Shown here in pieces: positions 7,354 through 45,603 of a DNA stretch of 64,000 nt. Numbering within the stretch: position 1 is the first letter of the stretch; each line of letters opens with the position of its first letter. Below the pieces are notes generated by a model. That model was not told where the DNA came from. It ran no database searches and saw nothing but the letters and a program-made list of their open reading frames with translations. The position numbers and the translations under genes are program-made. Where the stretch lies: NCBI GenBank assembly GCA_020444045.1, contig JAHLLS010000005.1, forward strand, positions 62,001-126,000, given 5' to 3'. Origin of the DNA: Deltaproteobacteria bacterium (lineage in GTDB: Bacteria > Desulfobacterota > Desulfobacteria > Desulfobacterales > UBA5852).

Positions 7354-7364
7354 TTGGCTGGCCG

Positions 7365-8513
7365 ATGCGATTCCTATCATTCAAAGCGCTTTTCGTACTG
7401 GTGATGCTGCCACCGATTTTGTACGTAGCCTCCCTTCAGGGACTCGAGGGGTATTTGGAACATCACTATCGCAGCGCGCTTGCCAACCGGATACCGGGAG
7501 ACACCCAGGCGCTTTTGACCGGACGGATCCGTTTGACCGATCAACTTCAGACCATCGTCGAGGCGTTGCGCACAGAGGCGGTTTTTCACCATCATGGCGT
7601 GGTGCTGACAGTGACCATCCGGACGCAGACAGGGCGCCGGCTTTATCCTCCCGCGTTTAGCGAAGATACCACCGCCGAACCGGGCCATGAAATGATGCGG
7701 GTGGCCAGTGAAAACTTCACCTTGCTGAACGAAGGGCTGGACGTTACGCTGGATGTGACGATTGGCCATAATACCCTGGTGGCCAATGCGGTGCTGGCGT
7801 CCTGTATCCTATTGGCCCTGGCGGGCTTGGCGGTTCTCTATCGGCGAGGCGTGCGTGGTTACGAGGCGGAAGAAGCCCAGCGTCAGAAAGAACGGGATGC
7901 CATAAGGGTTCGCGAAGCCAAGCAGAAAGAGGCGCTGGCGGTTCTAACCGATCAAAAAAACGATCTGGCGGCCGAAATTGACACCATTCAATCAGACCTG
8001 CAAGCGGCCCAGGAGCGCGCCGCTCGCAACGAAGCCGATCTATTTGATGAGGTCGAAACCCTCGAAGAGAAGTTGCAGCAGAATTTGAAACAGCAGGATC
8101 AGCAGCAAGCCCGGGTGCGGGAACTGGAAGATCAACTGGCCCAATTGGCCCGGGAACGGGAAGCCCTCAGTGTTCAACAGGGCAAACTTGCCGGCGGGTT
8201 GCGCAAACGCATGGACACGCTTTATAAGAATACCACTTTTTCGGATCGTTCGTTGGCGGGTTTGGCGGAATTGCCCGAAACCCTGCAGATCAAAGCCGAA
8301 GAAGTCATTCATCAGCTGGATGCCCAGGCGGATGATGTTCCGGTCAAACGGAAATTATTCCGGGGCAAAGGCAAGGAGACGGTTTTCGAAATCGTGTTTG
8401 CGCGCAAAGGACGCCTGTATTTTCGCCGGACCAAGGCGCGCAAGGTGGACATTCTGGCGATCGGCACCAAGAATACCCAGGAGAAGGACTTACTCTATTT
8501 GGATCGGATCTGA
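7365..8513 (+). CDS. Membrane sensor with coiled coil and C-terminal RelE-like domain
   Basis: I do not recognise the full-length family. The 382 residues show an N-terminal membrane segment (FKALFVLVMLPPILYVASL), an extracytoplasmic region of about 110 residues, a second membrane segment near residues 144-162 (NAVLASCILLALAGLAVLY) and a long cytoplasmic coiled coil (about 170-275, rich in E, Q, K and A heptads). The last 55 residues (VKRKLFRGKGKETVFEIVFA, then RLYFRRTKARKVDILAIGTK) resemble the small beta-sheet core of RelE/HigB toxins, ending in a KNTQEKD segment like the KKTxKTP of HigB. Whether it cleaves RNA or is only a binding fold is unknown. It sits tightly behind the TPR gene. Confidence 0.7.
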   Translation: MRFLSFKALFVLVMLPPILYVASLQGLEGYLEHHYRSALANRIPGDTQALLTGRIRLTDQLQTIVEALRTEAVFHHHGVVLTVTIRTQTGRRLYPPAFSEDTTAEPGHEMMRVASENFTLLNEGLDVTLDVTIGHNTLVANAVLASCILLALAGLAVLYRRGVRGYEAEEAQRQKERDAIRVREAKQKEALAVLTDQKNDLAAEIDTIQSDLQAAQERAARNEADLFDEVETLEEKLQQNLKQQDQQQARVRELEDQLAQLAREREALSVQQGKLAGGLRKRMDTLYKNTTFSDRSLAGLAELPETLQIKAEEVIHQLDAQADDVPVKRKLFRGKGKETVFEIVFARKGRLYFRRTKARKVDILAIGTKNTQEKDLLYLDRI

Positions 8514-8582
8514 TAGACAGTCAGCCCCCCCTTACCGGGGGCGTCTGTTCCCAAAACAACCCATGAGGATGAACGGTTAGCC

Positions 8583-10292: not shown

Positions 10293-10301
10293 TGGAAGAC
10301 A

Positions 10302-12209: not shown

Positions 12210-12218
12210 GATACCACT

Positions 12219-12857
12219 ATGCGCCTTTACGCTGCTTCCGATCTCCACGGGAAATACCGTTATGGCGAGACTATCAAAGACGGTATCCTGCGCAGCCGGG
12301 CCGATGCGATGGTGCTGGCCGGTGATATTCTGAATTACCGTCGCAACCCTGATCTGCTGCGGTTTCTGGATGATCTGCCGGTGCCGGTTTTTTTGGTGCG
12401 CGGCAACAGCGATCCGGCATTCTTGGAGAGGTGGGCGGCCCAAAGCCGGAATGTGCGCTCCCTGCATCTGAATCCCGTCGTCCTGGATGGTGTCGTCCTG
12501 GTCGGGTTGAGCGGCACGCTCCCGCTGCCTTTCCATTCCCGCGTTGGGTGGCATGAGTCACGGATGCTGCGTCGACTGGCACCACTGGTTCATGCCCGCA
12601 CGATTGTCGTGGCCCACCCGCCGCCGCACGGATGCCGCGACCGGGTCCTGGGGCGCTGGTCTGCCGGAAGCCGGGGGGTGTCCCGACTGATCCGCAAAAT
12701 CGCACCGGCCGTGATGGTCTGTGGTCATATCCATGAGGCAGCGGGTGTGGAGCGCTTGGGGGATACCCTGGTGGTCAATTGTGCCCTGGGGCCGGACCGT
12801 TTGGGCGCCCAAATCGTGTTGGAAGACGGCCGGGCGCCCTCAGCGGAGATGGTATAG
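12219..12857 (+). CDS. Calcineurin-like metallophosphoesterase
   Basis: The 212 residues carry the metal-binding motifs of the family in order: SDLHGK (residues 7-12), AGDILN, RGNSDP, VAHPPPHG and CGHIHEAAG. Members hydrolyse phosphodiesters or phosphomonoesters using two metal ions; the substrate here cannot be predicted. It begins 9 bases after the hybrid kinase and is the last gene before a strong bidirectional terminator, so it probably closes the operon that begins at 5074. A second phosphoesterase of the same superfamily lies at 18766-19503. Confidence 0.88.
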   Translation: MRLYAASDLHGKYRYGETIKDGILRSRADAMVLAGDILNYRRNPDLLRFLDDLPVPVFLVRGNSDPAFLERWAAQSRNVRSLHLNPVVLDGVVLVGLSGTLPLPFHSRVGWHESRMLRRLAPLVHARTIVVAHPPPHGCRDRVLGRWSAGSRGVSRLIRKIAPAVMVCGHIHEAAGVERLGDTLVVNCALGPDRLGAQIVLEDGRAPSAEMV

Positions 12858-12945
12858 ACGATTGGCGCCATGCCGTCGTATCGATCGACGGGCATTGCCT
12901 CTCCCCGAAAAACATCCGCCATCGGCGTTACGCCAATCCATCTCA

Positions 12946-12971
12946 TAAAAAGGCCCCTCGCGGGCCTTTTT
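12946..12971. terminator. Bidirectional rho-independent terminator
   Basis: AAAAAGGCCC-CTCG-CGGGCCTTTTT is a 10-bp GC-rich hairpin flanked by an A-run and a T-run. It sits between two convergent genes and overlaps the stop codon of the minus-strand acyl-CoA synthetase, so it can serve both strands. Confidence 0.9.
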
Positions 12972-14772
12972 ATTCGGCGTACATTTCTTCGATCATCGAC
13001 TGAAAATTTTCCAGAACAACGTTGCGCTTCAGTTTTAGCGACGGCGTGAGCTCGCCCTTTTCCTGGGAGAATTCCCGCTGAACGATGCGGTACTTTTTGA
13101 TGGTCTCGAATCGGGCCAGTTGCCCGTTGCGGGCCTGCACCCGGGCCTCGACCAGCGCCAGAAAGGCCGGGGCGGTCAGCAGATCGACGGGTGCTGTGAA
13201 GGGGATGTCGTTTTCGTGCGCCAGATGAGACGCCACGTCCAGATTGATGGTCAACAGCGCGGAGAGAAATTTGCGCCGGTCGCCGATGACGATGAACTGG
13301 GCAAAGAGGGGATCGCTCAGAAAAATGCCTTCGATTTTTTGGGGCGCGATATTCTTGCCGCCCGAGGTGATGATGATGTTCTTCTTGCGGTCTGTGATGG
13401 AGAGAAACCCATCGGCGTCGAACTGGCCGATATCACCGCTCATGAAATAACCGTCTTCGGTGAAGGAGCGGCGGGTTTCTTCCTCCATTTTCCAGTAGCC
13501 TTTGAAAACGTTGTCGCCCTTGACCAGGATTTCACCGTCGTCGGCCAGTTTGATGCTGACGCCGGGCAGCGGCTTGCCCACCGTCCCGATGCGGTAATCG
13601 CTTAAATTGCTCATGGTGGCTGGGGCAAAGCATTCGGTCATGCCGTAGCCTTCCACCACCGTGATGCCGGCGGCGTTGAAAAACAGAATGATATCTCGAG
13701 ACGTGGGCGCCCCCGAGGCCGTCATCCAGCGCACGCGGCCCCCCAAGGCCTGCTGCAATTTGCTGAAAATGAGACGATAGGCCAGGCGGTACTGCCACTT
13801 CATGAACAGCGGGATCGGGGCCTTCTTTTCCCGGAGGTCGCTGATTTTCAAACCAATGGCGTGGCCCCAGTAAAAAATCCTCTGGCGCCACCGGGGTTGG
13901 GCCTCCACCTGCAGGCATATTTTCTGGTACACTTTTTCACATACCCGCGGGACGGCCAGGATCATGGTGGGCCGTTTTTCCTTGAAATCCTGCAGCAGGG
14001 TGTTGATGGTTTCGGCATAGGAGGCCGTGATGCCCTTGTACATCCCGTAGTAGTGTCCGGCGGCACGCTCGAACACATGGCTCAGGGGGAGGAACGGTAC
14101 CGTGCTGTCGGCATCCGAAGCGTAGGGGGGGCGAATTTGATCGAGCGATTCGATGACGGCGATGATGTTGCGATGGGTGATCATGGCGCCTTTGGGAACG
14201 CCGGTGGTGCCCGAGGTGTAAACCAGCGTAGCCATATCGTCCGGTTTGACGGCATCGGCCAACCGCTGGAACAAATCCGGATTTTCCCTCAGCCGCTCTC
14301 GTCCGGCGGCCATCAAATCCGCAAACGAGATGACACCGGTCTCCCGTTCATCGGCTTCGAAGGGGGCCATGATGACGATGTGCTCCAGACTGGGGCATTG
14401 CGGCCATGCTTCGCGGGCTTTCGCCAGCTGTCCGGCATCTTCCACCACGAGGACCTTGGTGCCTGAATTGTCGACGATGTATGCGATTTCGCCCGCTGTC
14501 AGCGACGGATAGATCGTGACCACGACACCGCCGACGCCCAGGGTGCCCATATCGGTATACAGCCATTCCAGGCGGTTTTCCGACAGCAGCGACACCCGGT
14601 CGCCCTTGCGGATACCCAGATGGGTCAGCCCCAGGCCGGTCTCACGGGCCCGCTCATAATACTGGGTCCAGGTGGCTTGATGCCATTGGCCGTTGGCTTT
14701 TTTCTCGATGGCCAGGCGATTCTCATAGCGCTTTGCCTGCCGGGCGAAAACGTCATTGATGGTCTGATCCAT
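12970..14772 (-). CDS. Long-chain acyl-CoA synthetase (AMP-binding, FadD15-like)
   Basis: The 600-residue protein has the length and motif order of the bacterial FAA1/FadD15 group. The ATP/AMP signature is YTSGTTGVPKGAMITHRN (about 183-200), the A5-type motif is GYGMTECFA, and the hinge is DRKKNIIITSGGKNIAPQKI. It would activate long-chain fatty acids to acyl-CoA at the inner face of the membrane for beta-oxidation or lipid synthesis. It is monocistronic: a terminator lies at its 3' end and an AT-rich upstream region (14773-14870) could hold its promoter. Exact chain-length preference cannot be read from the sequence. Confidence 0.93.
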   Translation of the reverse strand: MDQTINDVFARQAKRYENRLAIEKKANGQWHQATWTQYYERARETGLGLTHLGIRKGDRVSLLSENRLEWLYTDMGTLGVGGVVVTIYPSLTAGEIAYIVDNSGTKVLVVEDAGQLAKAREAWPQCPSLEHIVIMAPFEADERETGVISFADLMAAGRERLRENPDLFQRLADAVKPDDMATLVYTSGTTGVPKGAMITHRNIIAVIESLDQIRPPYASDADSTVPFLPLSHVFERAAGHYYGMYKGITASYAETINTLLQDFKEKRPTMILAVPRVCEKVYQKICLQVEAQPRWRQRIFYWGHAIGLKISDLREKKAPIPLFMKWQYRLAYRLIFSKLQQALGGRVRWMTASGAPTSRDIILFFNAAGITVVEGYGMTECFAPATMSNLSDYRIGTVGKPLPGVSIKLADDGEILVKGDNVFKGYWKMEEETRRSFTEDGYFMSGDIGQFDADGFLSITDRKKNIIITSGGKNIAPQKIEGIFLSDPLFAQFIVIGDRRKFLSALLTINLDVASHLAHENDIPFTAPVDLLTAPAFLALVEARVQARNGQLARFETIKKYRIVQREFSQEKGELTPSLKLKRNVVLENFQSMIEEMYAE

Positions 14773-35077: not shown

Positions 35078-35201
35078 GACGGGTTCGTAAAAGGTTCAAG
35101 ATTAAGGCGCACAAATTCTGAAGAATGAGGCGTACTTATCGTACGCCGCAATGATGAGGAGTGCCGCGCAACACAGATATTGATCCTTTTACGAACCCGT
35201 C
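35078..35201. repeat. Dispersed palindromic element, copy 4 (124 bp)
   Basis: Ends GACGGGTTCGTAAAAGG and CCTTTTACGAACCCGTC are perfect inverted repeats of 17 bases. The centre is GGCGTACTTATCGTACGCC. It lies between the transglycosylase gene and a small membrane protein gene whose start is 13 bases downstream, so it may contribute to that gene's leader. Confidence 0.88.
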
Positions 35202-35513: not shown

Positions 35514-35588
35514 GGTCCCATCGTCTAGCGGTTAGGACGCCGGCCTCTCACGCCGGTAACGGGGGTTCGATTCCCCCTGGGATCACCA
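35514..35588 (+). tRNA. tRNA-Glu (anticodon CTC)
   Basis: A complete cloverleaf of 75 bases including an encoded CCA end. The acceptor stem GGTCCCA pairs with TGGGATC, the D arm follows TCGTCTAGCGGTTAGGACGC, the anticodon stem is CCGGC/GCCGG with loop CTCTCAC (anticodon 35547-35549), and the T arm is GGGGG-TTCGATT-CCCCC. It reads GAG codons. It is the integration site of the element that follows; the 3' half is duplicated at 41449-41496. Confidence 0.97.
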
Positions 35589-35592
35589 CTGA
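35545..35592. other. attL: 48-bp direct repeat within tRNA-Glu
   Basis: Identical to 41449-41496. It begins exactly at the anticodon loop (CTCTCACGCCGGTAACGGGG) and runs 4 bases past the CCA end. Integration at the anticodon loop is a known class of tRNA attachment for tyrosine integrases. Confidence 0.95.
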
Positions 35593-35635
35593 TTACAATA
35601 GGTTTTCAAACCTACCATTTGCCGCTTGGGGAGTT

Positions 35636-35704
35636 GACGGCTCCCCAGACGGCTTTTTGTTTCCCCGGCTCAATTTGAACAATACCGCTAACTATTAGAC
35701 GGCT
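35636..35704. promoter_or_regulatory. GACGGCT repeats: putative left arm-type integrase sites
   Basis: Three exact GACGGCT copies at 35636, 35648 and 35698, the first two spaced 12 bases apart. The right end has three copies at 41358, 41370 and 41380 with the same 12-base spacing for the first two. This placement just inside both att sites fits arm-binding sites of a tyrosine recombinase; binding itself is inferred. Confidence 0.6.
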
Positions 35705-36768
35705 TGACCAATCGTTACGACCTCTGACTTTGATTTCGATGATAGGCTTTCCAACGCATCTCTGACGCGTTCCATTCCGATGCTCTTCAAATACCGTTCT
35801 GTTGTGCTGGGACTTTGGTGCCGCAAAATGGTCTGTATGACGCCAAGGTCGTATCCCAGATTGAACAGGATGGACGCGGACAGATGCCGAATAGCGTGGA
35901 ACCCAAAAGGCTTCACCTTTGCATTGTCGCAAAGCTTTCGCATGAATTGGAGCCTATACCTAAAAGGCTGTCCGTAATGTTCACGGGTAAAGGCCGTCTT
36001 GTCCAAGCATAGAAATACATGCGTATGGTCCTTGATGGGGCGGTACTGCCACCAGGAGCGTAGAGCCTTTCGCAGTTCCTGGGTCATGGGCAACCAATCA
36101 TACTCATAGGCCCCATCCTTGCGTTTGCGTGTCCATAGTCGAATACGATTGCTGCCGAAATCAATATCCGACCACTGCATACGAAATACCTCTCCGCGAC
36201 GTGCAGCTAGGTGCAGGAAGGTCAAGAGCATCACTTTGTCCTGGCCCTTGGCCGCGTCATACATCTTCCAAAAATCCTCCTCTGGAGGAACATAGCGTGG
36301 CTGCCGAACCTCTGGCATTCGTTCCACCAAGCAAGGGTTTGGGCTTTGTAGGGTAGGGCTCATATATTTTATGCCCCAGTTCCAGGCCGCTACCAGGTTC
36401 TTGCGGTCTTTGTTAGCAGCGTATCCAGATCGCACCTCCTTCTGTTTGATGATGTAATCCAGCACATGGGCCGGTTTCAACGCCGAGACAGCCATTGAAG
36501 GGTTGACGACTTTGAAGAACCGTTTGAACATCGAGACCTTTTCTTTGTAGGTCTTTACCGAGAAGCGGACCCTGGCCACATCCAGATAGGCCTGAGCCCA
36601 ATCACCCAAACAGGCCGTGACGGTCTTCCTGTTCCATTCTTCGACGGGCTTTCGCCTCATCCTGGCTTCCCAGTTTTTTGCTTCCTTCTTGGTCAACAAC
36701 ACCTTCTCCAGCCTCTGGCCCTCTTTTTTCACTTGGGCTATCCACTTCTGTCCTCTTTTGTACGGCAC
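35695..36768 (-). CDS. Tyrosine-family site-specific integrase
   Basis: GTG 36768 is the start, because AAAGGAGGTGTGCT precedes it; extension to an upstream ATG would lose this site. The 357 residues show the core-binding domain (VKTYKEKVSMFKRFFKVV) and the catalytic domain with Arg191 (LAARRGEVFRMQW), His291-x-x-Arg294 (HAIRHLSASIL), His317 (ILRHQSPSTTERY) and nucleophile Tyr326. All catalytic residues are present, so it should be active. It sits next to attL and reads towards the tRNA, the usual arrangement for tRNA-integrating islands. Its start overlaps the HTH gene by 167 bases in another frame. Confidence 0.95.
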   Translation of the reverse strand: MPYKRGQKWIAQVKKEGQRLEKVLLTKKEAKNWEARMRRKPVEEWNRKTVTACLGDWAQAYLDVARVRFSVKTYKEKVSMFKRFFKVVNPSMAVSALKPAHVLDYIIKQKEVRSGYAANKDRKNLVAAWNWGIKYMSPTLQSPNPCLVERMPEVRQPRYVPPEEDFWKMYDAAKGQDKVMLLTFLHLAARRGEVFRMQWSDIDFGSNRIRLWTRKRKDGAYEYDWLPMTQELRKALRSWWQYRPIKDHTHVFLCLDKTAFTREHYGQPFRYRLQFMRKLCDNAKVKPFGFHAIRHLSASILFNLGYDLGVIQTILRHQSPSTTERYLKSIGMERVRDALESLSSKSKSEVVTIGQAV

Positions 36769-36925
36769 AGCACACCTCCTTTTCAAAGAACCGATAATGG
36801 CGACCCAAGCGTATTCCACCTAACGACTGGTAATGCTTCCTCACGGTTTTCACATCCAGACCGAGATACAGGGCAACATCCTTGGCTCGCAACGCCTTTC
36901 CCAACTGTTTTTCAATCCCTTTCAT
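36602..36925 (-). CDS. Small helix-turn-helix protein, probable excisionase or regulator
   Basis: The 107 residues begin with an AlpA/MerR-like HTH: LRAKDVALYLGLDVKTVRKH, then GGIRLGRHYRFFEKEV, the classical excisionase pattern in which the wing follows GRxYRF. GAGGTG lies 8 bases before ATG 36925. The second half (PSEKRGPEAGEGVVDQEGSK and following) overlaps the integrase start and is likely disordered. Placement directly upstream of the integrase on the same strand supports a role in directing excision or repressing the operon. Confidence 0.75.
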   Translation of the reverse strand: MKGIEKQLGKALRAKDVALYLGLDVKTVRKHYQSLGGIRLGRHYRFFEKEVCCAVQKRTEVDSPSEKRGPEAGEGVVDQEGSKKLGSQDEAKARRRMEQEDRHGLFG

Positions 36926-37133
36926 TCGATTTCACCTCACATGCAGTGGCGTTTGCTGATCCACAGCTTGTGGCCGTGAGGTTGGCCGCCAGTTTTACGA
37001 GGTGGTGCTCGTGCGTTGCGTTCGGTTGTTTACCCAGAAAAACCCAACAAAATGGCAGTTCATGCTGCCTGCGGCCGATGCGGACGCAAGAACTATGTTC
37101 TTGCGCCGTAGAGCCGCCTTTCATTATCAAGTG

Positions 37134-38828
37134 TCATAGCCGTGGTTTGAACCCCTTCATGGCATCCCGGTATTCCCTGACCATTGTTTCGTACAGGGTG
37201 TCGCGGTGCCGGGTTTGCACTATGACGCTGTCAAAAACCGATAGGCCGAGTATCTCTCTGTCCATCAGGCTCAATAAGATGGCGTTCATGATGTCGCTAT
37301 CCTTGTTCTGAAGGGTGAGTCCGATGTCCGAAAACAAATACTTGGCAATGGGTCCGTGGGCCTCTCTGAACGTGTTGACGAGGCTCACAAGAGGCTTTTC
37401 CCGGGCGGGCAAGGGTATGCCCCTGTCTTTCAATTCATTGCGAATGGCTCCATATGCGGAGCGTTCATCTTTGGCATTGATAGCCACAAGACCGACCGCC
37501 TTGTAGGTGGCTCTCATGTCCGGCCCTTCGCAAACCTCGTAAGGGTCGATTTGATAATCAATTCCTTCCAGGTGGTAGAGCATCAGGATGTGATAGGCCG
37601 AATAATCCAGTTCGACGGTCGGCTGCCCGTCAATGTGGATGCAGGGCCGCAGATGTTTCGGGATGCTCTGGTGCAGGGCTCCGTAAGCTCTCCCGCCAAG
37701 GCTGAAGGATTTGCGATTGTAAACGCGGTGGAGATATTCGTAGGCCAGCCGTAGCGTCAATTGTTCAAGCCCTATCTCCCGCATAGGAAAGCGTTCCGCC
37801 AGGAATTCGCTGGCAGGGTCTGAGTCCGGGATACTGGCCGCATGCCGGCAAAGGTCTGCCAGGTAATTCACCAGCATATCCACCACAAAACGGCCTTCAC
37901 GCAAATACACGATTGACGTGGCTTCCGGCAGTTTCTTCTGAGTCATGGTGGGAAGGAGAGAATGGTACGGAGTACAAGATGAATGTATACTACGGTACGG
38001 TATGGGAAGGAATTGGTGGATATACGGTCGTACTGGATGTATTACTGTATCAGATAGAACTACTGATAATACTTCAATACTGTTATTAACTATACTATGA
38101 TACAGTGTCTCTGTCAGAAACCGATGGTCGATTTCTACCGTTCTGTCCAGATTGACGGTAATCTCGTGTCTGTCGATATAGTCGTTGTATTCTTCCAACG
38201 CCCTTTTATAACGAAGTATTTCCGGTGTATTGCGATAGCCGACCTTGTGCTTTTGCCTGGTCGCATCCCGCAAAATAATCAGCTCTTCAGGCCGTCTGAC
38301 GTGGAAGAAATCGGGCTCTCTCAAGCGATGGGTATAGAAGTGTTGCCACAGCCTGGGGGTGGCCCACATGCGGCTCTGGCGGCCTATCTCCTTGTCTGAA
38401 TTCCAGACCCCCTTCTTCTGCTGGATGTATCCCAGGTGTGCCAGAGCGTCGATGACCGGAATCATCCGGTCGTATTTGAAGAAGAGTTTCCCGTAGCGTC
38501 GATTGCTTGCGTAAGCCGACCTATCGCGGGAATAGCGGACGGGCTTGCCCATGAACCGGGCAAACCAGAGATTGATGAGCACGGTTTTGATGGCGTCCTT
38601 GGTCTTGCTCACCGTGGATACTTTGATGAGCCCTTTGACTTCATCGAATACCCTGTTTACAAGCCCCTGGAGACGTTTGGAACGGGACGCATAGACGTTA
38701 AGCGGCATGGCGTCCTCATACCAGTTGCCCGCATCGCATACGTGGTCTACTTCTTCTGATAAAGCATGGTGCTCTGGCGAATAGGGGAAAATCATCGGCC
38801 GCCTAGCCGCCCACTCCACAAATTTCAT
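37134..38828 (-). CDS. Divergent superfamily-A DNA polymerase-like protein (TV-Pol type)
   Basis: ATG 38828 is chosen because AGGAGG precedes it. The 564-residue protein has no exonuclease domain. The C-terminal half carries a polymerase palm: motif A in TVELDYSAYHILMLYHLEG (Asp408), a motif B-like helix MRATYKAVGLVAINAKD (Arg439, Lys443) and motif C in GLSVFDSVIVQ (Asp533). The segment before motif A, GGRAYGALHQSIPKHLRPCI, matches the pattern of TV-Pol proteins, described in bacterial mobile elements and the Sputnik virophage and proposed to have primase and polymerase activity. It probably replicates the excised element. The linker (about 240-300) is unusually variable and encoded by repetitive DNA. 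Confidence 0.75.
   Translation of the reverse strand: MKFVEWAARRPMIFPYSPEHHALSEEVDHVCDAGNWYEDAMPLNVYASRSKRLQGLVNRVFDEVKGLIKVSTVSKTKDAIKTVLINLWFARFMGKPVRYSRDRSAYASNRRYGKLFFKYDRMIPVIDALAHLGYIQQKKGVWNSDKEIGRQSRMWATPRLWQHFYTHRLREPDFFHVRRPEELIILRDATRQKHKVGYRNTPEILRYKRALEEYNDYIDRHEITVNLDRTVEIDHRFLTETLYHSIVNNSIEVLSVVLSDTVIHPVRPYIHQFLPIPYRSIHSSCTPYHSLLPTMTQKKLPEATSIVYLREGRFVVDMLVNYLADLCRHAASIPDSDPASEFLAERFPMREIGLEQLTLRLAYEYLHRVYNRKSFSLGGRAYGALHQSIPKHLRPCIHIDGQPTVELDYSAYHILMLYHLEGIDYQIDPYEVCEGPDMRATYKAVGLVAINAKDERSAYGAIRNELKDRGIPLPAREKPLVSLVNTFREAHGPIAKYLFSDIGLTLQNKDSDIMNAILLSLMDREILGLSVFDSVIVQTRHRDTLYETMVREYRDAMKGFKPRL
37955..38105. repeat. AT-rich, repeat-laden segment inside the polymerase gene
   Basis: A stretch rich in TACGGTA, GTACT, ACTGTAT and ATACT-type words (for example CTACGGTACGGTATGGG) encodes a low-complexity linker. 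The clustering of short direct and inverted words resembles iterons of replication origins. A similar TACTGTA-rich stretch is at 41208-41260. An origin function is a guess. Confidence 0.35.
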
Positions 38829-38862
38829 ACGCTGTACCTCCTGTGGTTTACGTTTCGACCAA

Positions 38863-38915
38863 ATAAAAAAAGCCCTCAGCCACAAGAAAAAACAGAACCT
38901 CCGCCCGTTTGGGGG
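38863..38915 (-). terminator. Possible attenuator/terminator upstream of the polymerase gene
   Basis: On the minus strand AAGCCC and GGGCTT frame a long loop with an inner CACAAG/CTTGTG stem, followed by TTTTTTTATTT. It would end transcripts entering from the right before the polymerase ribosome binding site, or regulate them. Confidence 0.4.
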
Positions 38916-38942
38916 CTTGTGCTTGTCTGATTTTTCTTATGG

Positions 38943-39382
38943 ATGAAGGCTGTTGGTCGAACGCCCACCCTGGGGTACTGCTATTTGGGTCTGCCCGAGG
39001 GACTTACCGACCCGATAGGTATTTTACGCATACCTGACGTCAAATATGCGAATTATGAGCGTATTGTCAATAGGGCGGCTCGTTATCATCCTCAAAAAGC
39101 TCACGTTCGATACGCCGCCGCTCAAGATTTCAACAACGATATTCTATGCAGAGGCCCCATTTTCATCAATTTAATTCGCAATAAAAATATAATAAGAATT
39201 AAATTGCCTTGTGAGTAAAATATTACCTATCTTCTTGGTCAATATCTGCGAATAATTTACACAATAAGTACACTAAATCAGTGAAGTAAGATCTGATCTC
39301 ACTGTATTTTATACATATTAAATTAATGGGTATAATTGCATAATTATTGCATATAGGGAGGGGAAACCTTTTAAAAAAGATA
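38943..39382. other. AT-rich spacer with leader promoter region
   Basis: An open frame at 38943-39218 has no ribosome binding site and I do not support it as a gene. The segment 39170-39360 is very AT-rich. TATAAT at 39331-39336 is about 50 bases before the riboswitch aptamer and is the best -10 candidate; a -35 box (TTTATA, 17 bases upstream) is weak. Confidence 0.4.
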
Positions 39383-39470
39383 AGGCCAAACTCACCGTAA
39401 GATGAGGACGGAAAGCTACGGGTCTCTCAGGGGCGATTGCCACAGACCTAAGGGAGAAAGCCGGGTTGCC
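39383..39470 (+). ncRNA. Cyclic-di-GMP-I (GEMM) riboswitch aptamer
   Basis: The conserved GEMM-I elements occur in order. GGCCAAAC opens P1/P2, CTCA-CCGTAAGA-TGAG is P2 with its loop, GGACGGAAAGCTACGGGTC corresponds to the diagnostic GGACGCAAAGCC segment and start of P3, and GCCGGGTTGCC closes the structure. The known family binds c-di-GMP between the two long helices. The 3' strand GCCGGGTTGCC can instead pair with AGGCACCCGG to form a terminator. The gene controlled starts 136 bases downstream and encodes a PEP-CTERM protein, a cell-surface class often placed under this riboswitch. A cGAMP-preferring variant cannot be excluded. Confidence 0.88.
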
Positions 39471-39497
39471 TAAATTCAGGCACCCGGTTTTCTGTTT
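39459..39497 (+). terminator. Riboswitch expression-platform terminator
   Basis: CCGGGTTGCCT, loop AAATTC, AGGCACCCGG then TTTTCTGTTTTT. The 5' arm is the closing strand of the aptamer, so ligand binding and termination are mutually exclusive. This predicts a switch that turns transcription on when c-di-GMP is bound. Confidence 0.8.
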
Positions 39498-39541
39498 TTA
39501 TAATCCTAACAACACAGGCACCCCGGGAAGAAAGGAGGTTA

Positions 39542-39595
39542 ATGGGGTGGACAGGCAACCATTGCTGCATCACGAATAACAGATTGAATCATTAA
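39542..39595 (+). CDS. 17-residue leader ORF between riboswitch and PEP-CTERM gene
   Basis: A strong ribosome binding site AAAGGAGG lies 3 to 4 bases before ATG 39542. The frame encodes MGWTGNHCCITNRLNH and stops with TAA at 39593-39595, which overlaps the AAGGAGG of the next gene. This spacing suits translational coupling. The short ATG spacing and small size leave doubt whether it is translated. Confidence 0.4.
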   Translation: MGWTGNHCCITNNRLNH

Positions 39596-39605
39596 GGAGG
39601 AGTCT

Positions 39606-40385
39606 ATGAAGAAGGCTTTTTTATTCTTGGTCTTGTGTGTTGTGCTGATTTTCGGCTTCAGCAGCAATGTATCGGCTTTATTGGTCAATCAGACGGTTGG
39701 GGCTCATCGCGTTGTTTACGATACCCTCAACGATCTGTATTGGTATCCTGTCTTGACTGATTTTACTGACATGACCCGGGATCAACAACTGGAGGCCATC
39801 GACGGACTGGCATATGCTGGATCAGATGACTGGCGAATGGCGACTTGGTTTGAAACGAGCGTTTTGAAGATATCCTTGGCTAGTATGGCCACAGTTGATG
39901 TCGTGCCGACGGACTTTGAAGATTTCCCTAACCCATCTTATGATAATAGGACCTGGGATTCGCCTTATTGTGCCTGGGATGTTGATAGTGCGGCTTTTTT
40001 TACCCCTACGGGAGAATTCGATTTTGGTGCAATTGGTTTAGACGACGTAATTGCTGATGTCTTTAATGGAAGGACCGCTGGTTGGGGTGTGACCAACATG
40101 GGCCCTGATGGTTTTTGGGGTGACCTTGAATGGGTGGCAGACTCCGCCGATGACCATTGGGTTTCTAGCTCATACATCAATGAGGGTGATGAGAATCTGA
40201 CAATGACATTCAACTTCGACCAGCATTTTAGAGATGATAATGCAACTTCTATGTGGATGGGCGGCGTTGGTGCCTGGGCTGTGACCAATAACGTTGCACC
40301 CGTCCCCGAACCTTCAACCATCGTTCTGATGGGTTTAGGTCTTGTTGGTCTTGCAGGGTTTGGCAGGAAGAAGTTCAAAAAATAG
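39606..40385 (+). CDS. PEP-CTERM sorted extracellular protein
   Basis: The 259 residues have an N-terminal signal peptide (AFLFLVLCVVLIFGFSSNVS) and end with the PEP-CTERM tripartite signal: VPEPSTIVLMGLG, hydrophobic helix, and basic tail GRKKFKK. Exosortase would cut this tail and release or attach the protein outside the outer membrane. The mature part has repeated tryptophans and aspartates (YDTLNDLYWYP, DDWRMATWFET, GGVGAWAVTNN) resembling DUF1566/lectin-like beta domains of other PEP-CTERM proteins, but I do not assign a function. AAGGAGG precedes ATG 39606. It is cargo of the mobile element, so the host must supply the exosortase. Confidence 0.93.
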   Translation: MKKAFLFLVLCVVLIFGFSSNVSALLVNQTVGAHRVVYDTLNDLYWYPVLTDFTDMTRDQQLEAIDGLAYAGSDDWRMATWFETSVLKISLASMATVDVVPTDFEDFPNPSYDNRTWDSPYCAWDVDSAAFFTPTGEFDFGAIGLDDVIADVFNGRTAGWGVTNMGPDGFWGDLEWVADSADDHWVSSSYINEGDENLTMTFNFDQHFRDDNATSMWMGGVGAWAVTNNVAPVPEPSTIVLMGLGLVGLAGFGRKKFKK

Positions 40386-40408
40386 CTGACGGCATATAGC
40401 ATTCATGG

Positions 40409-40446
40409 AGCCCCGTTACTCACCGGTAGCGGGGTTTCTATTTTCG
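40409..40446 (+). terminator. Rho-independent terminator after the PEP-CTERM gene
   Basis: CCCCGTTA, loop CTCACCGG, TAGCGGGG then TTTCTATTTTC: a GC-rich stem of about 8 bp with a T-rich tail. Confidence 0.82.
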
Positions 40447-40468
40447 TCATTGGACGATCAGGACGATG

Positions 40469-40657
40469 TTACCAAGGTTTATCAATTATGCCCCAGTAGT
40501 CGTCATCTGACGCATCAGAATCTCCCCTAATCCTGTCCCGCTCCAAGTATTCTTTCGCAATTTGCTCTGACAAAGGACCGATTATCATCCAGTCCTCCCA
40601 ATCCAACCCTTCATCGTCGTAAGACCCGTCAAAGTCGCCCATGAAATCATCGCACAT
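40469..40657 (-). CDS. Small highly acidic protein
   Basis: GAAGGAGG lies 5 bases before ATG 40657, so I took that start; the 62 residues begin MCDDFMGDFDGSYDDEGLDW and include WEDWMIIGPLSEQIAKEYLE. About a third of the residues are Asp or Glu. I do not recognise a family; such acidic small proteins on mobile elements can be DNA mimics, anti-defence factors or chaperone-like partners, none of which is shown here. It is encoded leftward, convergent with the PEP-CTERM gene. Confidence 0.65.
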   Translation of the reverse strand: MCDDFMGDFDGSYDDEGLDWEDWMIIGPLSEQIAKEYLERDRIRGDSDASDDDYWGIIDKPW

Positions 40658-40672
40658 GATATCCTCCTTCAT

Positions 40673-40951
40673 TTATTGGTTTTTACCCTCCGAAAGCGAC
40701 CGAACGGACGCTGCCTATTGGCAGCGCCGTTTCGGCGACTCCAATGGGGGGGTACAAATCCCCATCCAACTATCTATTGTTCAAGTCCAATTTATGGTCC
40801 CGTTTACACGCTCGGTGGTCGATTTATGGGGTGAACCACGATAGGCCCGAGAAATGCCCTCTCAAACCTGTGAGACAGCATTGAATGGCAGGGGAGTTGG
40901 CAAGGGGAAAAAGGGGTGGCCCGGTCGGAGAACCAATACTGGCTTGTTGTG
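40673..40951. other. Spacer between two small element genes
   Basis: No gene seen. A hairpin CGCTGCCTATTGGCAGCG is at 40709-40726. The run GGGGAAAAAGGGGTGG near 40907-40922 is purine-rich. Confidence 0.4.
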
Positions 40952-41080
40952 CTATGGTGTACTGGAAACATAGAGGCCCAGGAAAACCAGCAGCACTGCG
41001 TTTGTGATGACCAGCACCACCTCGATTACAGAGACCATGTATCGGTCATGGATACTGCCAACAAGATTGACTCGTAACAT
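40952..41080 (-). CDS. 42-residue single-pass membrane protein
   Basis: An exceptionally strong ribosome binding site, AAAGGAGGTGA, lies 5 bases before ATG 41080. The frame reads MLRVNLVGSIHDRYMVSVIE, then a hydrophobic helix VVLVITNAVLLVFLGLYV, and ends SSTP. The signal for translation and the clear helix make this a real gene despite its length. It could be a small toxin-like or regulatory membrane peptide. I cannot assign a family. Confidence 0.7.
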   Translation of the reverse strand: MLRVNLVGSIHDRYMVSVIEVVLVITNAVLLVFLGLYVSSTP

Positions 41081-41448
41081 CTCGTTCACCTCCTTTCATT
41101 GTTAGTCGATTTTCGCCCAATATGGTCGAATATCGTGGTAATTTCTCGCTATTATTGATGCTACTGGAATGGTACAACTTACAAGCGGAGAGGGACACGA
41201 TGTCCATCTGTAACACTGTATGCTACTGTAATTACAATTCTATTACTCTACTATGGTTGTCAGGCTGTTCTTGTGGCAGGTGTAACGGGACGCCTACGGG
41301 GGGCAAACGCACACACTTTCGCGTTTATGTTGGACTTGGGGTGGCCGCAGGCACACTGACGGCTTTTTAGACGGCTTTTGACGGCTCTGGATGGGTCTTG
41401 TTAGATGCAAAATGCTGTAAATGTAGGTGAAATACGCTTGGAATCGCA
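41081..41448. other. Right-end region of the element without a supported gene
   Basis: A rightward frame from 41122 or 41200 exists (GGAGAGGGACACG before ATG 41200) but its product, with many Cys and Asn, is not convincing. The stretch 41208-41260 is AT-rich with TACTGTA words. The GACGGCT repeats close the region. Confidence 0.4.
41358..41386. promoter_or_regulatory. GACGGCT repeats: putative right arm-type integrase sites
   Basis: Three exact GACGGCT copies at 41358, 41370 and 41380, embedded in TTTT-containing spacers, about 63 bases inside attR. Same words and 12-base spacing as at the left end. Confidence 0.6.
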
Positions 41449-41496
41449 CTCTCACGCCGGTAACGGGGGTTCGATTCCCCCTGGGATCACCACTGA
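41449..41496. other. attR: 48-bp direct repeat of the tRNA 3' half
   Basis: Identical to 35545-35592. It carries the tRNA anticodon loop, 3' anticodon stem, T arm and CCA, but no 5' half, so it is the displaced original end of the gene. Confidence 0.95.
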
Positions 41497-41503
41497 AAAT
41501 ATC

Positions 41504-41535
41504 AAGGGCTTGCATTGATTTGTAAGCCCTTTTTC
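41504..41535 (+). terminator. Terminator after attR, probably the original tRNA-Glu terminator
   Basis: AAGGGCTTG, loop, TAAGCCCTTTTTC. It lies 8 bases past the att repeat, where the native tRNA terminator would have been before integration. Confidence 0.75.
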
Positions 41536-42013
41536 ATTGCCCCGGGTTTTGGTTTCCCACCACTATTCCTGCTGTAAAAATTAGGTGCTGCCAGCTTGGA
41601 TTGATTAGCCGTCCCCATGAGGCACTCATTCAGGATGGTTGACTCTTGCACCTCCTTGATGATTCGGAAGACGGAAGAATCATTGAGCTTTGTGAGCCAC
41701 TCGTTGAAATCGAGGCTTTTCACCTGAGAGGATTGAAACTGAGCAATCGATTTCACAATCTTCTGCAAACCATTTCCCTCGCTGGCACGCCAGTGGATCT
41801 TTGTAAGCCCGAAGATGCAGGATTTTGTATTGATATATTGCGGTTAGGGAAAACGGGGTTTCATGCACGAATCTTGCATTTCCCAATCAGCTAATGCTCG
41901 CGGCAAAACAGGCATTTGACTGGAAGGGATAACAATTTAGCCGTTACCTGAAGCGCCAAGGTACGCCGGCGAGCATCCTTGGCGCTTTTGCGGGAAAGGG
42001 GGGAGCTCAAGAC
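41536..42013. other. Spacer between attR and the TAXI gene
   Basis: A leftward frame (41502-41768, TTG start, 88 residues) and a rightward one (41646-41894) overlap; neither has a good ribosome binding site or recognisable features. One could be a gene remnant of an older insertion. Confidence 0.35.
41951..41989 (+). terminator. Strong terminator or attenuator upstream of the TAXI gene
   Basis: AAGCGCCAAGG, a 17-base loop, CCTTGGCGCTTTT: an 11-bp stem with a short T-run. It ends 24 bases before the TAXI start codon, so it either ends an upstream transcript or acts as an attenuator. The loop GTACGCCGGCGAGCAT contains its own small CGCCGGCG palindrome. Confidence 0.75.
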
Positions 42014-43051
42014 ATGAAGACTTCAAGACGTCCGACACACCAACCTGGCGGCGCGATGTTCAGACGCTATACCCTGTTTTTTTGGGCCGTGATGGTCGCG
42101 TGCTTCCTGCCTCGAAACGGCTGGGGGGCACCTCTCATCGAAATGGGTATGGTAACGGGAGGACCTGCTGGCACCTATTACCAGTTTGGCCTGAACCTTC
42201 AGGAACTGGCCCAACAGAATGGCATCGAACTGCGGGTGGATAATTCCAAGGGGTCTATCGAAAACATCTACGCCGTCTATCAACGTCCCAAGACCCAGTT
42301 GGGCATCGTTCAGTCGGATGTCCTGGCGTTTGTATCTCGGGTTCAGAGTAATCCTGTGCTGAAGGGCATTGCCCTCAAGACGAAGATGGTCTTTCCGCTT
42401 TACAATGAAGAAATACACCTGGTGGGAAAAAGCGATATCCAGGGATTCGATTATCTTGCCGGGCGCAAGGTCGCCATCGGCAAAGAAGGCAGCGGCACCT
42501 ACATGACGGCCGAACTTCTGTTCAAGGTATCCGGCGTCGAACCGGCGCAAAGGCTGGCGATAGGGACCGACGAAGCGCTCGATGAACTGAAACGCGGCAA
42601 CATCGACGCCATGTTTTATGTCGCGGGCTACCCTGTCAAACTATTTAGTGAAAGTGTTCAACCCGAAGACAACCTGGCCCTTATTCCCATTGTCCATAAA
42701 AGCATTCTGGAATTCTATCCGCAGTCGGAAATCCCCGGCGGCACGTATACCTGGCAGGCCGAAACCGTCCCCACTGCGGCCGTCAAGGCGGTCCTGGTTG
42801 CATACGATTTTCGGAACTTCCACTGTGATACGGTCGGCAAGATGGCCAAGCTCATCTATGAGAATCTGGATTGGCTTTCCGCCAACGGGCACGCCAAATG
42901 GCAGTCGGTGGATTTGAACTACCAGCTCAAGGGATGGGAGCAATACGACTGCGTCGCCAAGTATCTGGCCGGTGTTCGACGGCCGCCGCAAACCAGCGTC
43001 CAGGAACTGAACCCGGTTTTGGACGCTTTGAAGGAAATGCTTGCCGAGTAG
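42014..43051 (+). CDS. TAXI-family periplasmic solute-binding protein (TRAP-associated)
   Basis: The 345 residues have an N-terminal signal region (TLFFWAVMVACFLPRNGWGA). The mature part begins with the TAXI hallmark MGMVTGGPAGTYYQFGLNLQ, then GSIENIYAVYQRPKTQLGIV and RKVAIGKEGSGTYMTAELLF. Family members bind small organic ligands in the periplasm and usually serve a TRAP transporter, but no TRAP permease (DctM/DctQ-like) is in the window. GGGGGGAG precedes ATG 42014; ATG 42056 is an alternative start. The next gene is a GspA-like ATPase, so the binding protein may act as a sensor input rather than a transporter component. Confidence 0.87.
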   Translation: MKTSRRPTHQPGGAMFRRYTLFFWAVMVACFLPRNGWGAPLIEMGMVTGGPAGTYYQFGLNLQELAQQNGIELRVDNSKGSIENIYAVYQRPKTQLGIVQSDVLAFVSRVQSNPVLKGIALKTKMVFPLYNEEIHLVGKSDIQGFDYLAGRKVAIGKEGSGTYMTAELLFKVSGVEPAQRLAIGTDEALDELKRGNIDAMFYVAGYPVKLFSESVQPEDNLALIPIVHKSILEFYPQSEIPGGTYTWQAETVPTAAVKAVLVAYDFRNFHCDTVGKMAKLIYENLDWLSANGHAKWQSVDLNYQLKGWEQYDCVAKYLAGVRRPPQTSVQELNPVLDALKEMLAE

Positions 43052-43223
43052 AAAGCGGCAGGCCAACAGCCGGCAAGGGTCGGCCGGTAAGGGCCGATCG
43101 GGGCGGGAGCGTGAAATGCTTCCCTGAAGCTGGGCCTGCAAGGTCATTCACGGCAGGGCCGGCGAGCGAGTGACCGCAATGGATGGGTTTGACAACTCGA
43201 CCCGCCATCGCCAAGCAGACATC

Positions 43224-44807
43224 ATGTATCTGGATCATTTCAATTTAAAGACCAAACCGTTCGCGCTGAGCACGGACCCCCGTTTTTTGTGGGCCGGCGC
43301 CAACCAGCGCCAGGCGCTGGCGACCCTGTCCTACGGGCTCCAGGAGAACAGGGGGATCGTTGTCCTGAGCGGTGAATTCGGCACCGGTAAGACCACGCTG
43401 GTCAACGCGTTTATCCAGAGCTTGGACGATACGGTCCGCGTGGCCCAACTCTCCGAACCGGGCGGCGACCCGGGTTATTTCCGCGCGGCTGTGGCCGAGG
43501 GGTTCGGGATCCGGATCGAAAACCACGATCGGGAGGGGCTCACCGAATGTCTCATCCGCCTGGCGGAGGATCGGCAGGGATACCGGCACCGCCTCCTGTT
43601 GGTGATCGATGAAGCTCAGGGGCTGACAGCGGAAATGCAGGCGGACTTGCTCCACCTGGCCTGTCTGGAGAACCAAGGCCACCGCCTGCTGCATATCCTC
43701 CTCGTCGGGCAGAATGAAATTTTCAAGTGGGCCGTCAGTGCCACGCGTGAAGCATTTCTCAGCCAGGTTTCGGCCACCTGTCGACTGCACCCCTTGAACG
43801 AGCGTGAAACAGCAGACTACATCGAACTTCGCCTGCGCGTTGCCGGTGCTCGACGGCCGCTTTTTGACGAAGGGGCCGCCAGTGCCATCCATTGCTTTTC
43901 CCGCGGCGTACCGCGTGCGATCAATTTGATGGGTGATTATGCCCTGCTGCACGCCCACTTGAAAGAAGCCGACAGGGTCGATGCTGAAATGGTGGGCATC
44001 TGCAAGGATCGCTTTCAGATCGCGACTATCGATGATGGGGGCGCTCCGGAAGTGACCGTGCGCGATCTCACAACGCTGCCCACGGAACCACAACCACCCC
44101 TTCGAGGTAAGATTCCGCGAGGTCTGGGACTTGCGGCACCGATACTGTTGATTCTCATACTGGCTGGTTTGTGGCGCTACATGGCGTTAAACAACGCATC
44201 GTTGAACCGGGATACGGCGCATTCTATGAAATCTCCGGCAGCGGAAATTTCGCCGCCGTTCCGTCCAGCCTCGCACCCCGCGCCGGGGCCGTCTACCCCC
44301 GCCGAAGCATCGCAAAAGGCCAGTACGATGCCATTTGTGGCGCCCAAATCCGTGGTCAAACAGGATCTGCCGCCGAAAACGCAGCATCCTCCGTCGGAAA
44401 CAGCATCATACCCGCAGCCGGCCTTATCGCAGATGGGAGATACTGAGGAGATCCAAACTCCGACGGTTGATGCGCGTGTGGGGCAAGAGCCCGAGGCAAC
44501 ACAGCCCCCTCAGCTGATGAAAGATTATTCATCTCCAACGGAAACGATCCCAGACCTGCAACCGGACGCTCCGCGGACGGGTGATGCAGAGGCGATTCAA
44601 AAAAGGGCCGCCAAACAGCTTTCCGAACCACCGCCGGAAGAGAAACCTTCCGTTGCTGTAGAACCGAAACCCGCCATTTCGGCCCTTCCCCGGGCGGCCG
44701 GGGATGCCGATCCCGGAGACATTATCGACTGGTTGATCAAAGAAAAGCAGAAGGGCGGGAATCCAACGCCACAGGCCCCCGACGAAATTTCTCCTTCCAC
44801 AGAGTAA
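43224..44807 (+). CDS. GspA/ExeA-like AAA ATPase with transmembrane helix and periplasmic tail
   Basis: ATG 43224 gives MYLDHFNLKTKPFALSTDPR, aligning with the ATPase at 8583; a GTG at 43170 could add 18 residues. The 527-residue protein has Walker A SGEFGTGKTTL (about 49-59), Walker B LLLVIDEAQGL, a sensor region and one membrane helix (AAPILLILILAGLWRYMAL). The periplasmic tail is about 220 residues, rich in Pro, Glu and Ser and apparently disordered, ending GDIIDWLIKEKQKGG. Unlike its paralogue it has no OmpA domain. It follows the TAXI gene by about 170 bases on the same strand. The gap 44808-45123 shows only a short TTG-initiated frame of no clear nature. Confidence 0.88.
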   Translation: MYLDHFNLKTKPFALSTDPRFLWAGANQRQALATLSYGLQENRGIVVLSGEFGTGKTTLVNAFIQSLDDTVRVAQLSEPGGDPGYFRAAVAEGFGIRIENHDREGLTECLIRLAEDRQGYRHRLLLVIDEAQGLTAEMQADLLHLACLENQGHRLLHILLVGQNEIFKWAVSATREAFLSQVSATCRLHPLNERETADYIELRLRVAGARRPLFDEGAASAIHCFSRGVPRAINLMGDYALLHAHLKEADRVDAEMVGICKDRFQIATIDDGGAPEVTVRDLTTLPTEPQPPLRGKIPRGLGLAAPILLILILAGLWRYMALNNASLNRDTAHSMKSPAAEISPPFRPASHPAPGPSTPAEASQKASTMPFVAPKSVVKQDLPPKTQHPPSETASYPQPALSQMGDTEEIQTPTVDARVGQEPEATQPPQLMKDYSSPTETIPDLQPDAPRTGDAEAIQKRAAKQLSEPPPEEKPSVAVEPKPAISALPRAAGDADPGDIIDWLIKEKQKGGNPTPQAPDEISPSTE

Positions 44808-45123
44808 CGCCCAATGTCATCGATTACAGTTGGCAACCATTCTTAAGCCTTTTCAGGGTATCGGCAGCCTAAAAACGGCCAGACGCTATAGAACCGTTTA
44901 CATTGAATCCGCTATGGACTATATGCGTCGCGTTCTAACTCAACACGCGGCACAAAAAAACTGGGGACTGGCCACCTGTGCCATCAAATTAGCCCGAACA
45001 TTTCATGAAATTTTTTCTACACATTAAATTTTATGCAAATATTCAGTGTAATAAAACCTATTCAGGGTATGATTTTCAGGTGACACTTTGTACCCTTGGC
45101 CGCTTTCCAAAATCATAGAAAAT

Positions 45124-45241
45124 GTTTCACCCTGTGGGCGCGCCCGAGATGCCCATTGGCCGCGTTACCAGGGGCTTGCGGTAGCATTCGTACAGTGGCG
45201 CCCCTGATGCCTTGCCAATGAACATCTCGAACGCGTGAAAT
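45124..45241. repeat. Imperfect palindrome of about 118 bp
   Basis: Outer arms TTTCAC..CGAGATG.CCATTGGC (45125-45160) and the complement of GCCAATGAACATCTCGAACG pair; inner arms contain CCAGGGGC and GCCCCTGA. It does not resemble the GACGGTTTCGTAAAA element. It sits in the gap between the GspA-like ATPase gene and the decayed att site. Confidence 0.6.
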
Positions 45242-45275
45242 ATTCGGGTTAGGTGTTGGCAGGCATAGCAGATCT

Positions 45276-45406
45276 GACGGCTGTTAACGGCCGGAAACGG
45301 ATTCCAACGGCTGAAAAAAGGAAAATACGATGGAATCCTCAGTATAACGTTCTCGCACGTCGGTAGCCGGGGTTCGATTTCCCGTGGGATTTACACCAAT
45401 ATGATC
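45276..45406. other. Decayed third att-like site with a tRNA-Glu 3' half
   Basis: Bases 45350-45400 (TTCTCGCACGTCGGTAGCCG, then GGTTCGATTTCCCGTGGGAT) align with the 48-bp att repeat with several substitutions and small gaps. They keep the anticodon-loop, T-loop and CACCA parts but no 5' half. GACGGCT at 45276 with related AACGGC words at 45286 and 45306 lies about 70 bases to the left, as at attR. Confidence 0.6.
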
Positions 45407-45408
45407 AG

Positions 45409-45440
45409 TGGGTTAGCCCTTATGGGTTAACCCTCTTGCT
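45409..45440 (+). terminator. Weak hairpin after the decayed att site
   Basis: GGGTTAGCCCTTAT then GGGTTAACCCTC, followed by TTGCTTTTG. Position relative to the att-like site mirrors the terminator at 41504. The rest of the gap to 45600 shows no gene. Confidence 0.4.
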
Positions 45441-45603
45441 TTTGAACTTGTCATCCTCACGCCATGTTACAGCGGCAGGCTTTTTATCAGAGGTTTCAGA
45501 AATCGCCGGCATAGTGATACAACCTCCGTGCATCAAAACCAGCTAAGGTTTTCTTTGATTACACTATTCACGAAGGTCAACGAAGAACAGATTAAAGCAC
45601 TTG

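Follow-up and report, generated by a model that had tools for sequence, protein, structure and literature searches.

Mobile elements that pair a TV-Pol polymerase gene with an integrase were described from sequence in 2008: they place a family-A-like polymerase, in a subset bearing an extra N-terminal domain predicted to be all-helical, beside a lambda-type integrase, resolvase or transposase, a fused D5 helicase is another feature of the group, the family is described from viruses and from mobile elements, together with replicative helicases, and Desulfococcus oleovorans and Geobacter bemidjiensis stand in its alignment list (Iyer, Abhiman, Aravind 2008, PMC2579912). Pipolins integrate in tRNA genes between attachment (att) repeats, encode a recombinase and their own polymerase, have flexible gene content and transfer horizontally; their polymerase belongs to family B (piPolB; PMC7385651). 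PolA-SSB primases, CcPol-MP of SCCmec, are family-A polymerases on a mobile element with a shown or proposed primase role, an OB-fold partner and an adjoining helicase (PMC10061031), and cyclic di-GMP (c-di-GMP) riboswitches stand ahead of PEP-CTERM genes on the chromosome of strain GP59 (PMC12530212). Here we analyze a 64,000-nt stretch, the window, from a Deltaproteobacteria bacterium (GenBank assembly GCA_020444045.1, contig JAHLLS010000005.1, positions 62,001 to 126,000 of the forward strand), in which a 5.95-kb element occupies a tRNA-Glu gene. We consider it likely that this is a site-specific element of the TV-Pol kind that excises through its own integrase, is predicted to copy itself with its family-A polymerase, and carries cargo that a riboswitch, probably turned ON by c-di-GMP, precedes.

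In keeping with the published TV-Pol elements, the window polymerase has an extra N-terminal domain and an integrase neighbor; unlike theirs, that domain looks winged-helix-like, and neither att sites in tRNA genes nor arm sites, orf67 or cargo with a riboswitch appear in the main text of PMC2579912. The predicted family of the polymerase separates the element from pipolins, and a neighbor that is only a 67-aa acidic protein, with no helicase match, may set it apart from CcPol-MP; the riboswitch/PEP-CTERM pair of strain GP59 is not reported, in the part of the source available, as belonging to an att-bounded element. An earlier note made from the window's letters alone had claimed that no element with this combination was described. 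TV-Pol/integrase elements and pipolins, which share the plan with a family-B enzyme, narrow that claim to the joining of a TV-Pol with riboswitch cargo, for which no paper was found in the open-licence literature (subscription papers not covered). By analogy, the element is an A-family counterpart of pipolins; what is new here are its putative arm sites, a conserved 12-nt site, orf67 as a core gene, discordant trees, a weakly supported winged-helix-like N-terminus and a candidate origin.

An integrative element in tRNA-Glu

The element (35545-41496; Table 1) lies within tRNA-Glu(CTC) between direct repeats that are identical at 48/48 positions and spaced 5904 nt apart, and its GC content is 0.494, as against 0.552 in the 2 kb on each side and 0.557 in the window. 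Along the minus strand, starting at attR, come orf45, orf67, polymerase, helix-turn-helix (HTH) gene, integrase and tRNA, with the PEP-CTERM gene and riboswitch on the opposite strand between orf67 and the polymerase; orf67, pol, hth and int all share one orientation. The tRNA-Glu site is present in all four same-genus genomes (G001-G004; the source genome is G000), and when both flanks were joined without the element and aligned to these loci, the alignment passed the junction by 15 to 43 nt in three of the four (L113 in G004, L116 in G001 and L114 in G002, where L-numbers denote the loci compared). At the fourth (L115 in G003) the alignment halts at the junction and attL-end-like sequence follows (85% over 60 nt), which we read as the probable scar of another element. 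Among the six genomes of the family set, which includes G000, the polymerase was found at E up to 1e-20 in G000 only. The att repeats and the uninterrupted site in three of four same-genus genomes thus support a tRNA-Glu integrative element, much as the earlier note had proposed from identical 48-nt repeats and lower-GC DNA, both of which hold; the anatomy shows that attL and attR arose by recombination between 48-nt sites in the tRNA gene.

The integrase contains ARRGE (residues 206-210), RKRKDG (231-236), HAIRH (308-312) and LRHQSPSTTERY (332-343), which we take to hold the catalytic residues, and int overlaps the HTH gene. The HTH protein, besides its excisionase-like match, has an HTH_17 match under that model's cut-off and a weak terminase-small-subunit match (0.0022).

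Related elements share ends and exchange modules

A protein search with the polymerase returned 208 relatives, of which the best 120 were listed, and a scan of genome_contigs gave 23 loci; the gene occurs in 31/389 genomes of the order (19/150 genera) and 7/395 of the phylum, both counts including G000 and many of the genomes being those of the named loci. Across the 40 loci compared (L012-L035, L072-L087), polymerase, HTH and integrase genes (53-78% identity) occur together at L017, L020, L021, L025, L027, L082 and L022+L034, a count from which L029 and L080 (integrases 30-31%) were excluded. L022 and L034, two contigs of one metagenome-assembled genome (MAG), probably carry one element, because polymerase residues run to 510 on one and from 510 on the other and both share a 49-nt att repeat. 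The HTH partners ahead of the integrase are 45-73% identical in L017, L020, L021, L025, L027 and L034 and 46% in L082. A tRNA adjoins the integrase at all seven loci: Glu(CTC) in L021, L027 and L082, Glu(TTC) in L034, Asp in L017 and L025, and in L020 a tRNA inside which the contig ends (partial Rfam match), the att repeat of L020 containing that of L021. The trio beside a tRNA thus recurs at seven other loci, and other genomes do hold this gene order with matching att repeats, so that the finding which would have refuted the earlier note did not come about. Att repeats were located in L020, L021, L075 and L022+L034, and in L073 and L080 after extending the DNA; among the 22 loci tried, 16 others had no match longer than 16 nt.

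In the window, L020, L021 and L022+L034, each end carries GCCGTC repeats at almost unchanged distances. The attL-end pair at 35636-35653 is as far from the att edge in L020 and in L021 as it is here and lies 4 nt farther in L034, and at similar distances from attR there are three copies in L020 and L075 and two in L021 and L022. Only one end has the repeats in L075, whose recombinase is a serine enzyme. We infer that these repeats are integrase arm sites. The 12-mer AGCGTATTCCAC lies 56-68 nt inside attR in the window (1 mismatch), L020, L021, L022 and L075, and recurs inverted over the int start in the window, L017 (1 mismatch), L020, L021, L025, L027, L034 and L082 (1 mismatch), where chance would give 0.01 to 0.09 per stretch; L080 is without it and L073 has one, elsewhere. 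This is a putative excisionase or regulator site: the HTH protein would bind both copies, the one next to attR and the one at the int start, and so link excision with expression of int. A rival reading, which fits equally well, is that in the circle the inverted pair would let RNA pair with the int start.

Relatives of orf67 lie upstream of pol in L013, L016, L020, L021, L025 and L027, and in L024 over 39 residues only; further matches occur in L073, L077, L079 and L080, and in L078 distant from pol. To judge from this recurrence, orf67 is a conserved core gene, not cargo. The earlier note had listed two tiny genes after the PEP-CTERM gene: both open reading frames (ORFs) are present, the 67-aa one falls to the core, and the 45-aa one showed no relatives in the comparison of related loci.

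The remaining polymerase loci lie next to different tRNAs or tmRNA and have different recombinases, of the tyrosine type in L013 and of the serine type in L014, L016 and L075, and several relatives carry ArdC-like (by BLAST) and other genes that the window element lacks, with ArdcN over its cut-off in L075 and no match in L017. In the integrase tree the window groups with L020, L021 and L027 (99/99), whereas in the polymerase tree those three group with L025, L073 and L024 (99/99) to the exclusion of the window's; the trees disagree, and modules have therefore been exchanged.

Three of these loci merit description for themselves. L020 comes from a MAG named Methanococcoides (an archaeon), carries an att-bounded element with an integrase nearly the same as that of L021 and L027 (deltaproteobacterial MAGs), and is probably a misbinned contig. 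The Desulfosarcina cetonica element (L025) has an IS21-type pair (6952-9168; IstB 3.4e-78, rve transposase) between the polymerase and the HTH-integrase genes. In the L075 element (3548-13859) the GCCGTC block and 12-mer of tyrosine-integrase elements persist at the attR end and the other end holds a large serine recombinase, which we read as a probable recombinase replacement.

A predicted family-A polymerase with a candidate origin

The polymerase, whose probable start at 38828 is taken from its closest homologue P0001 (564 aa), has no Pfam match at E below 0.09 and matches phrog_4756 (function unknown) at 2e-51. R399, D427, R458/K462 and D552 are invariant in 28/28 aligned proteins and were matched by eye to the TV-Pol catalytic features of Iyer 2008 (two aspartates, the template-contacting arginine and the fingers RxxxK). 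The structural model (pLDDT, predicted local distance difference test, 76.6; pTM, predicted template-modeling score, 0.72) matches apicoplast PolA, Taq, Klenow and mitochondrial/T7 RNA polymerases, and the fold is predicted to be family A/T7-like with palm, fingers and thumb. The N-terminal part, folded separately (pLDDT 84.0), shows a weak likeness to winged helices of the MarR/PadR/TFE type, which lends weak support to a winged-helix-like domain.

Between this part and the catalytic core the gene holds a hypervariable stretch rich in AGTA/TACT. In 25 relatives, the window excluded, the tetramers number 133 there against 29 predicted from the remainder of the genes, composition controls giving 88.5 (dinucleotide) and 85 (codon shuffle; 108 the highest of 1000), and they are depleted in that remainder (153 vs 220). 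The insert is a possible origin inside the polymerase gene, at which a polymerase with a winged-helix-like N-terminus could act as initiator, primase and polymerase in one.

Cargo behind a predicted c-di-GMP riboswitch

The aptamer scores 65.1 bits with RF03167 (cut-off 59) and 59.9 bits with RF01051 (cut-off 35), and by eye its ligand-contact bases, presumably numbered G20/A47/C92, match the canonical c-di-GMP-I class. Its best Rfam model, RF03167, is the c-di-GMP-I-GGC variant, which we assume to be named for a G at the position-47 equivalent; the aptamer has A there, not G, and therefore reads as ordinary c-di-GMP-I. It looks like an ON switch, because in the ligand-free fold the terminator hairpin uses the aptamer's 3' strand: at high c-di-GMP the aptamer would hold the strand that the terminator needs, and the PEP-CTERM gene would be read. 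The superfamily-A, TV-Pol-like polymerase, the GEMM-I riboswitch with terminator and the PEP-CTERM gene, all first recognized in the earlier note, are upheld, respectively by the predicted fold with the invariant residues, by the RF01051 score with the hairpin energy, and by the PF07589 score (Table 1).

On contig C10 of G000 the riboswitch has an 84% likeness over 93 nt and the PEP-CTERM tail plus terminator one of 78% over 146 nt. Within the six family genomes the PEP-CTERM protein is matched over its last 107 residues only, its own copy aside, while among the matches listed 25 from elsewhere, including Candidatus Thiodiazotropha, show 42-79% identity over 92-100%; the cargo therefore seems to have come from outside, its ends resembling those found in the host lineage. 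Of the seven elements for which both ends are known, three have a PEP-CTERM gene between their att sites: the window's, that of L022 (212 aa) and that of L075 (297 aa). Same-genus G004 has two exosortases (PF09721, TIGR04178).

Riboswitch/PEP-CTERM pairs also stand on C14 and C10 of G000; on C10 (L120, 6992-9809) two c-di-GMP-I riboswitches lie about 1.1 kb apart, the second preceding a 478-aa PEP-CTERM gene. A c-di-GMP-I riboswitch with a PEP-CTERM gene (L022, 6037-6968) also lies immediately beyond attR of the Desulfobacula element, as if neighbor or earlier cargo.

Table 1. Features of the element and its target gene, in window coordinates
Feature	Position	Strand	Basis
tRNA-Glu(CTC), target gene, intact on integrase side	35514..35588	+	ARAGORN, Rfam
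attL, 48-nt direct repeat, anticodon arm to just beyond tRNA end	35545..35592	+	repeat comparison
Two putative GCCGTC arm-type sites within terminator-like hairpin	35636-35641, 35648-35653	-	motif search, terminator scan
Tyrosine integrase, 374 aa	35695..36819	-	PF00589 1.3e-19, phrog_1
Third GCCGTC, attL end, window only	35698..35703	-	motif search
Excisionase-like HTH protein, 107 aa, overlapping int	36602..36925	-	phrog_66 (excisionase) 5.2e-6; TIGR01764 weak
AGCGTATTCCAC site over int start codon, within hth	36808..36819	+	motif search; also pair I2 in repeat comparison
TV-Pol-like, predicted family-A polymerase, 564 aa from ATG	37134..38828	-	alignment, predicted structure; longest ORF to 38885
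Hypervariable insert in polymerase gene, AGTA/TACT-rich, candidate replication origin	37866..38114	-	repeat counts
Polymerase N-terminal region, predicted winged-helix-like domain	38082..38726	-	weak structure matches
Promoter-like hexamers upstream of riboswitch	39308..39336	+	10 such sites in region vs 7.4 expected by chance
c-di-GMP-I riboswitch aptamer	39376..39474	+	Rfam covariance models
Intrinsic terminator sharing aptamer 3' strand	39459..39505	+	fold, -19.2 kcal/mol
PEP-CTERM protein gene, 259 aa	39606..40385	+	PF07589 30.2 bits vs 20.7 cut-off; Lcl_C match under cut-off
Terminator-like hairpin after PEP-CTERM gene	40407..40438	+	terminator scan
orf67, small acidic core protein, 67 aa	40469..40672	-	relatives upstream of pol
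Small hydrophobic ORF, 45 aa, possible membrane peptide, putative gene	40952..41089	-	ORF list
Three putative GCCGTC arm-type sites inside attR	41358-41363, 41370-41375, 41380-41385	-	motif search
AGCGTATTCCAC site, 1 mismatch, inside attR, inverted relative to int-start copy	41427..41438	-	motif search
attR, identical 48-nt direct repeat	41449..41496	+	repeat comparison; site uninterrupted in L113, L114, L116

Weighing the proposal

Several observations count against a mobile, self-copying element with switched cargo. The exact attP junction was not found in viral_contigs, the profile scan gave no helicase match among the element's genes although published TV-Pol elements often have a helicase, and at L075 a serine recombinase replaces the tyrosine integrase. 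The TM-scores of the polymerase fold matches are low (0.18-0.35 of query), the sequence profile alone retrieved no polymerase from the PDB, and the polymerase gene is split in L027, L029 and L084. As to the cargo, a simple terminator scan did not list the riboswitch terminator, four of the seven att-bounded elements have no PEP-CTERM gene, and the riboswitch lies inside one of the seven, the window's (L073, L080 and the added stretches were outside the riboswitch search), so that a riboswitch-cargo pair as a trait of the family is not supported by this occurrence. No exosortase was detected in G000 with PF09721 or TIGR04178 (97.3% complete, 6.2% contaminated), and surface anchoring is therefore uncertain; of the earlier claim of a surface protein the PEP-CTERM motif stands and the surface location is weakened, G004 having its two enzymes.

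An island that is already dead, with integrase and polymerase kept by recency only and an ordinary host gene trapped between the att sites, would account for the split polymerase genes, for the element-end remnant beside the tRNA in G003 and for the C10 likenesses of the cargo; we think it unlikely, as the core reading frames are unbroken and still encode the residues that relatives conserve, the att copies are identical, and the arm sites and 12-nt sites are retained. We give still less weight to a phage satellite or defective prophage, in which the polymerase would aid replication upon helper infection and the helper would package the DNA. The element's size, tRNA site, HTH and integrase genes and replication protein resemble those of satellites, and distant partial polymerase matches occur in 253 phage records, all under 60% identity; against this, the six element ORFs scanned contain no relaxase/transfer or capsid/packaging genes save for the weak terminase-like match of the HTH protein, and in the viral_contigs scans the polymerase found 1 distant locus and the integrase 1. 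That the polymerase is instead a repair or defense enzyme carried as cargo is improbable, for while its history differs from that of the integrase, as for a movable module, it recurs, often with orf67, beside unrelated tyrosine and serine recombinases (L013, L014, L016, L075), and its family has been described, along with replicative helicases, from viruses and mobile elements (PMC2579912).

Building on the likely site-specific, TV-Pol-kind element, one may go further and suppose "A-pipolins", in which a single protein that joins a winged helix at its N-terminus to a family-A core would recognize AGTA repeats in its own gene, prime there, and copy the excised circle without an element-encoded helicase, the family repeatedly ferrying exosortase-type proteins between sulfate-reducer-related genomes, here under host c-di-GMP control through a traveling riboswitch. 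We put this forward as speculation, and rather doubtful as a whole.

Neighboring DNA

Beyond attR, a second, degenerate tRNA-Glu 3' fragment lies at 45352-45444, followed by a stretch like that downstream of G004's tRNA (79.8% over 94 nt), and the interval 41497-45351 may represent an earlier island inserted in tandem at this tRNA site. On the other side, at 35078-35201, lies a palindrome roughly 125 nt long, with arms of 25 nt, that has more than 100 matches in the five related genomes and looks like a dispersed element of the REP/MITE (repetitive extragenic palindrome/miniature inverted-repeat transposable element) type.

Concluding remarks

Few mobile elements bring a polymerase of their own, and for this TV-Pol branch only the 2008 sequence prediction was met in the open-licence literature. 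To that prediction can now be added att sites, putative arm sites and another conserved site, as well as a core gene, a host range and a candidate origin. Should the cargo behave as predicted, the element would deliver a gene pre-wired to a second-messenger signal of its host.

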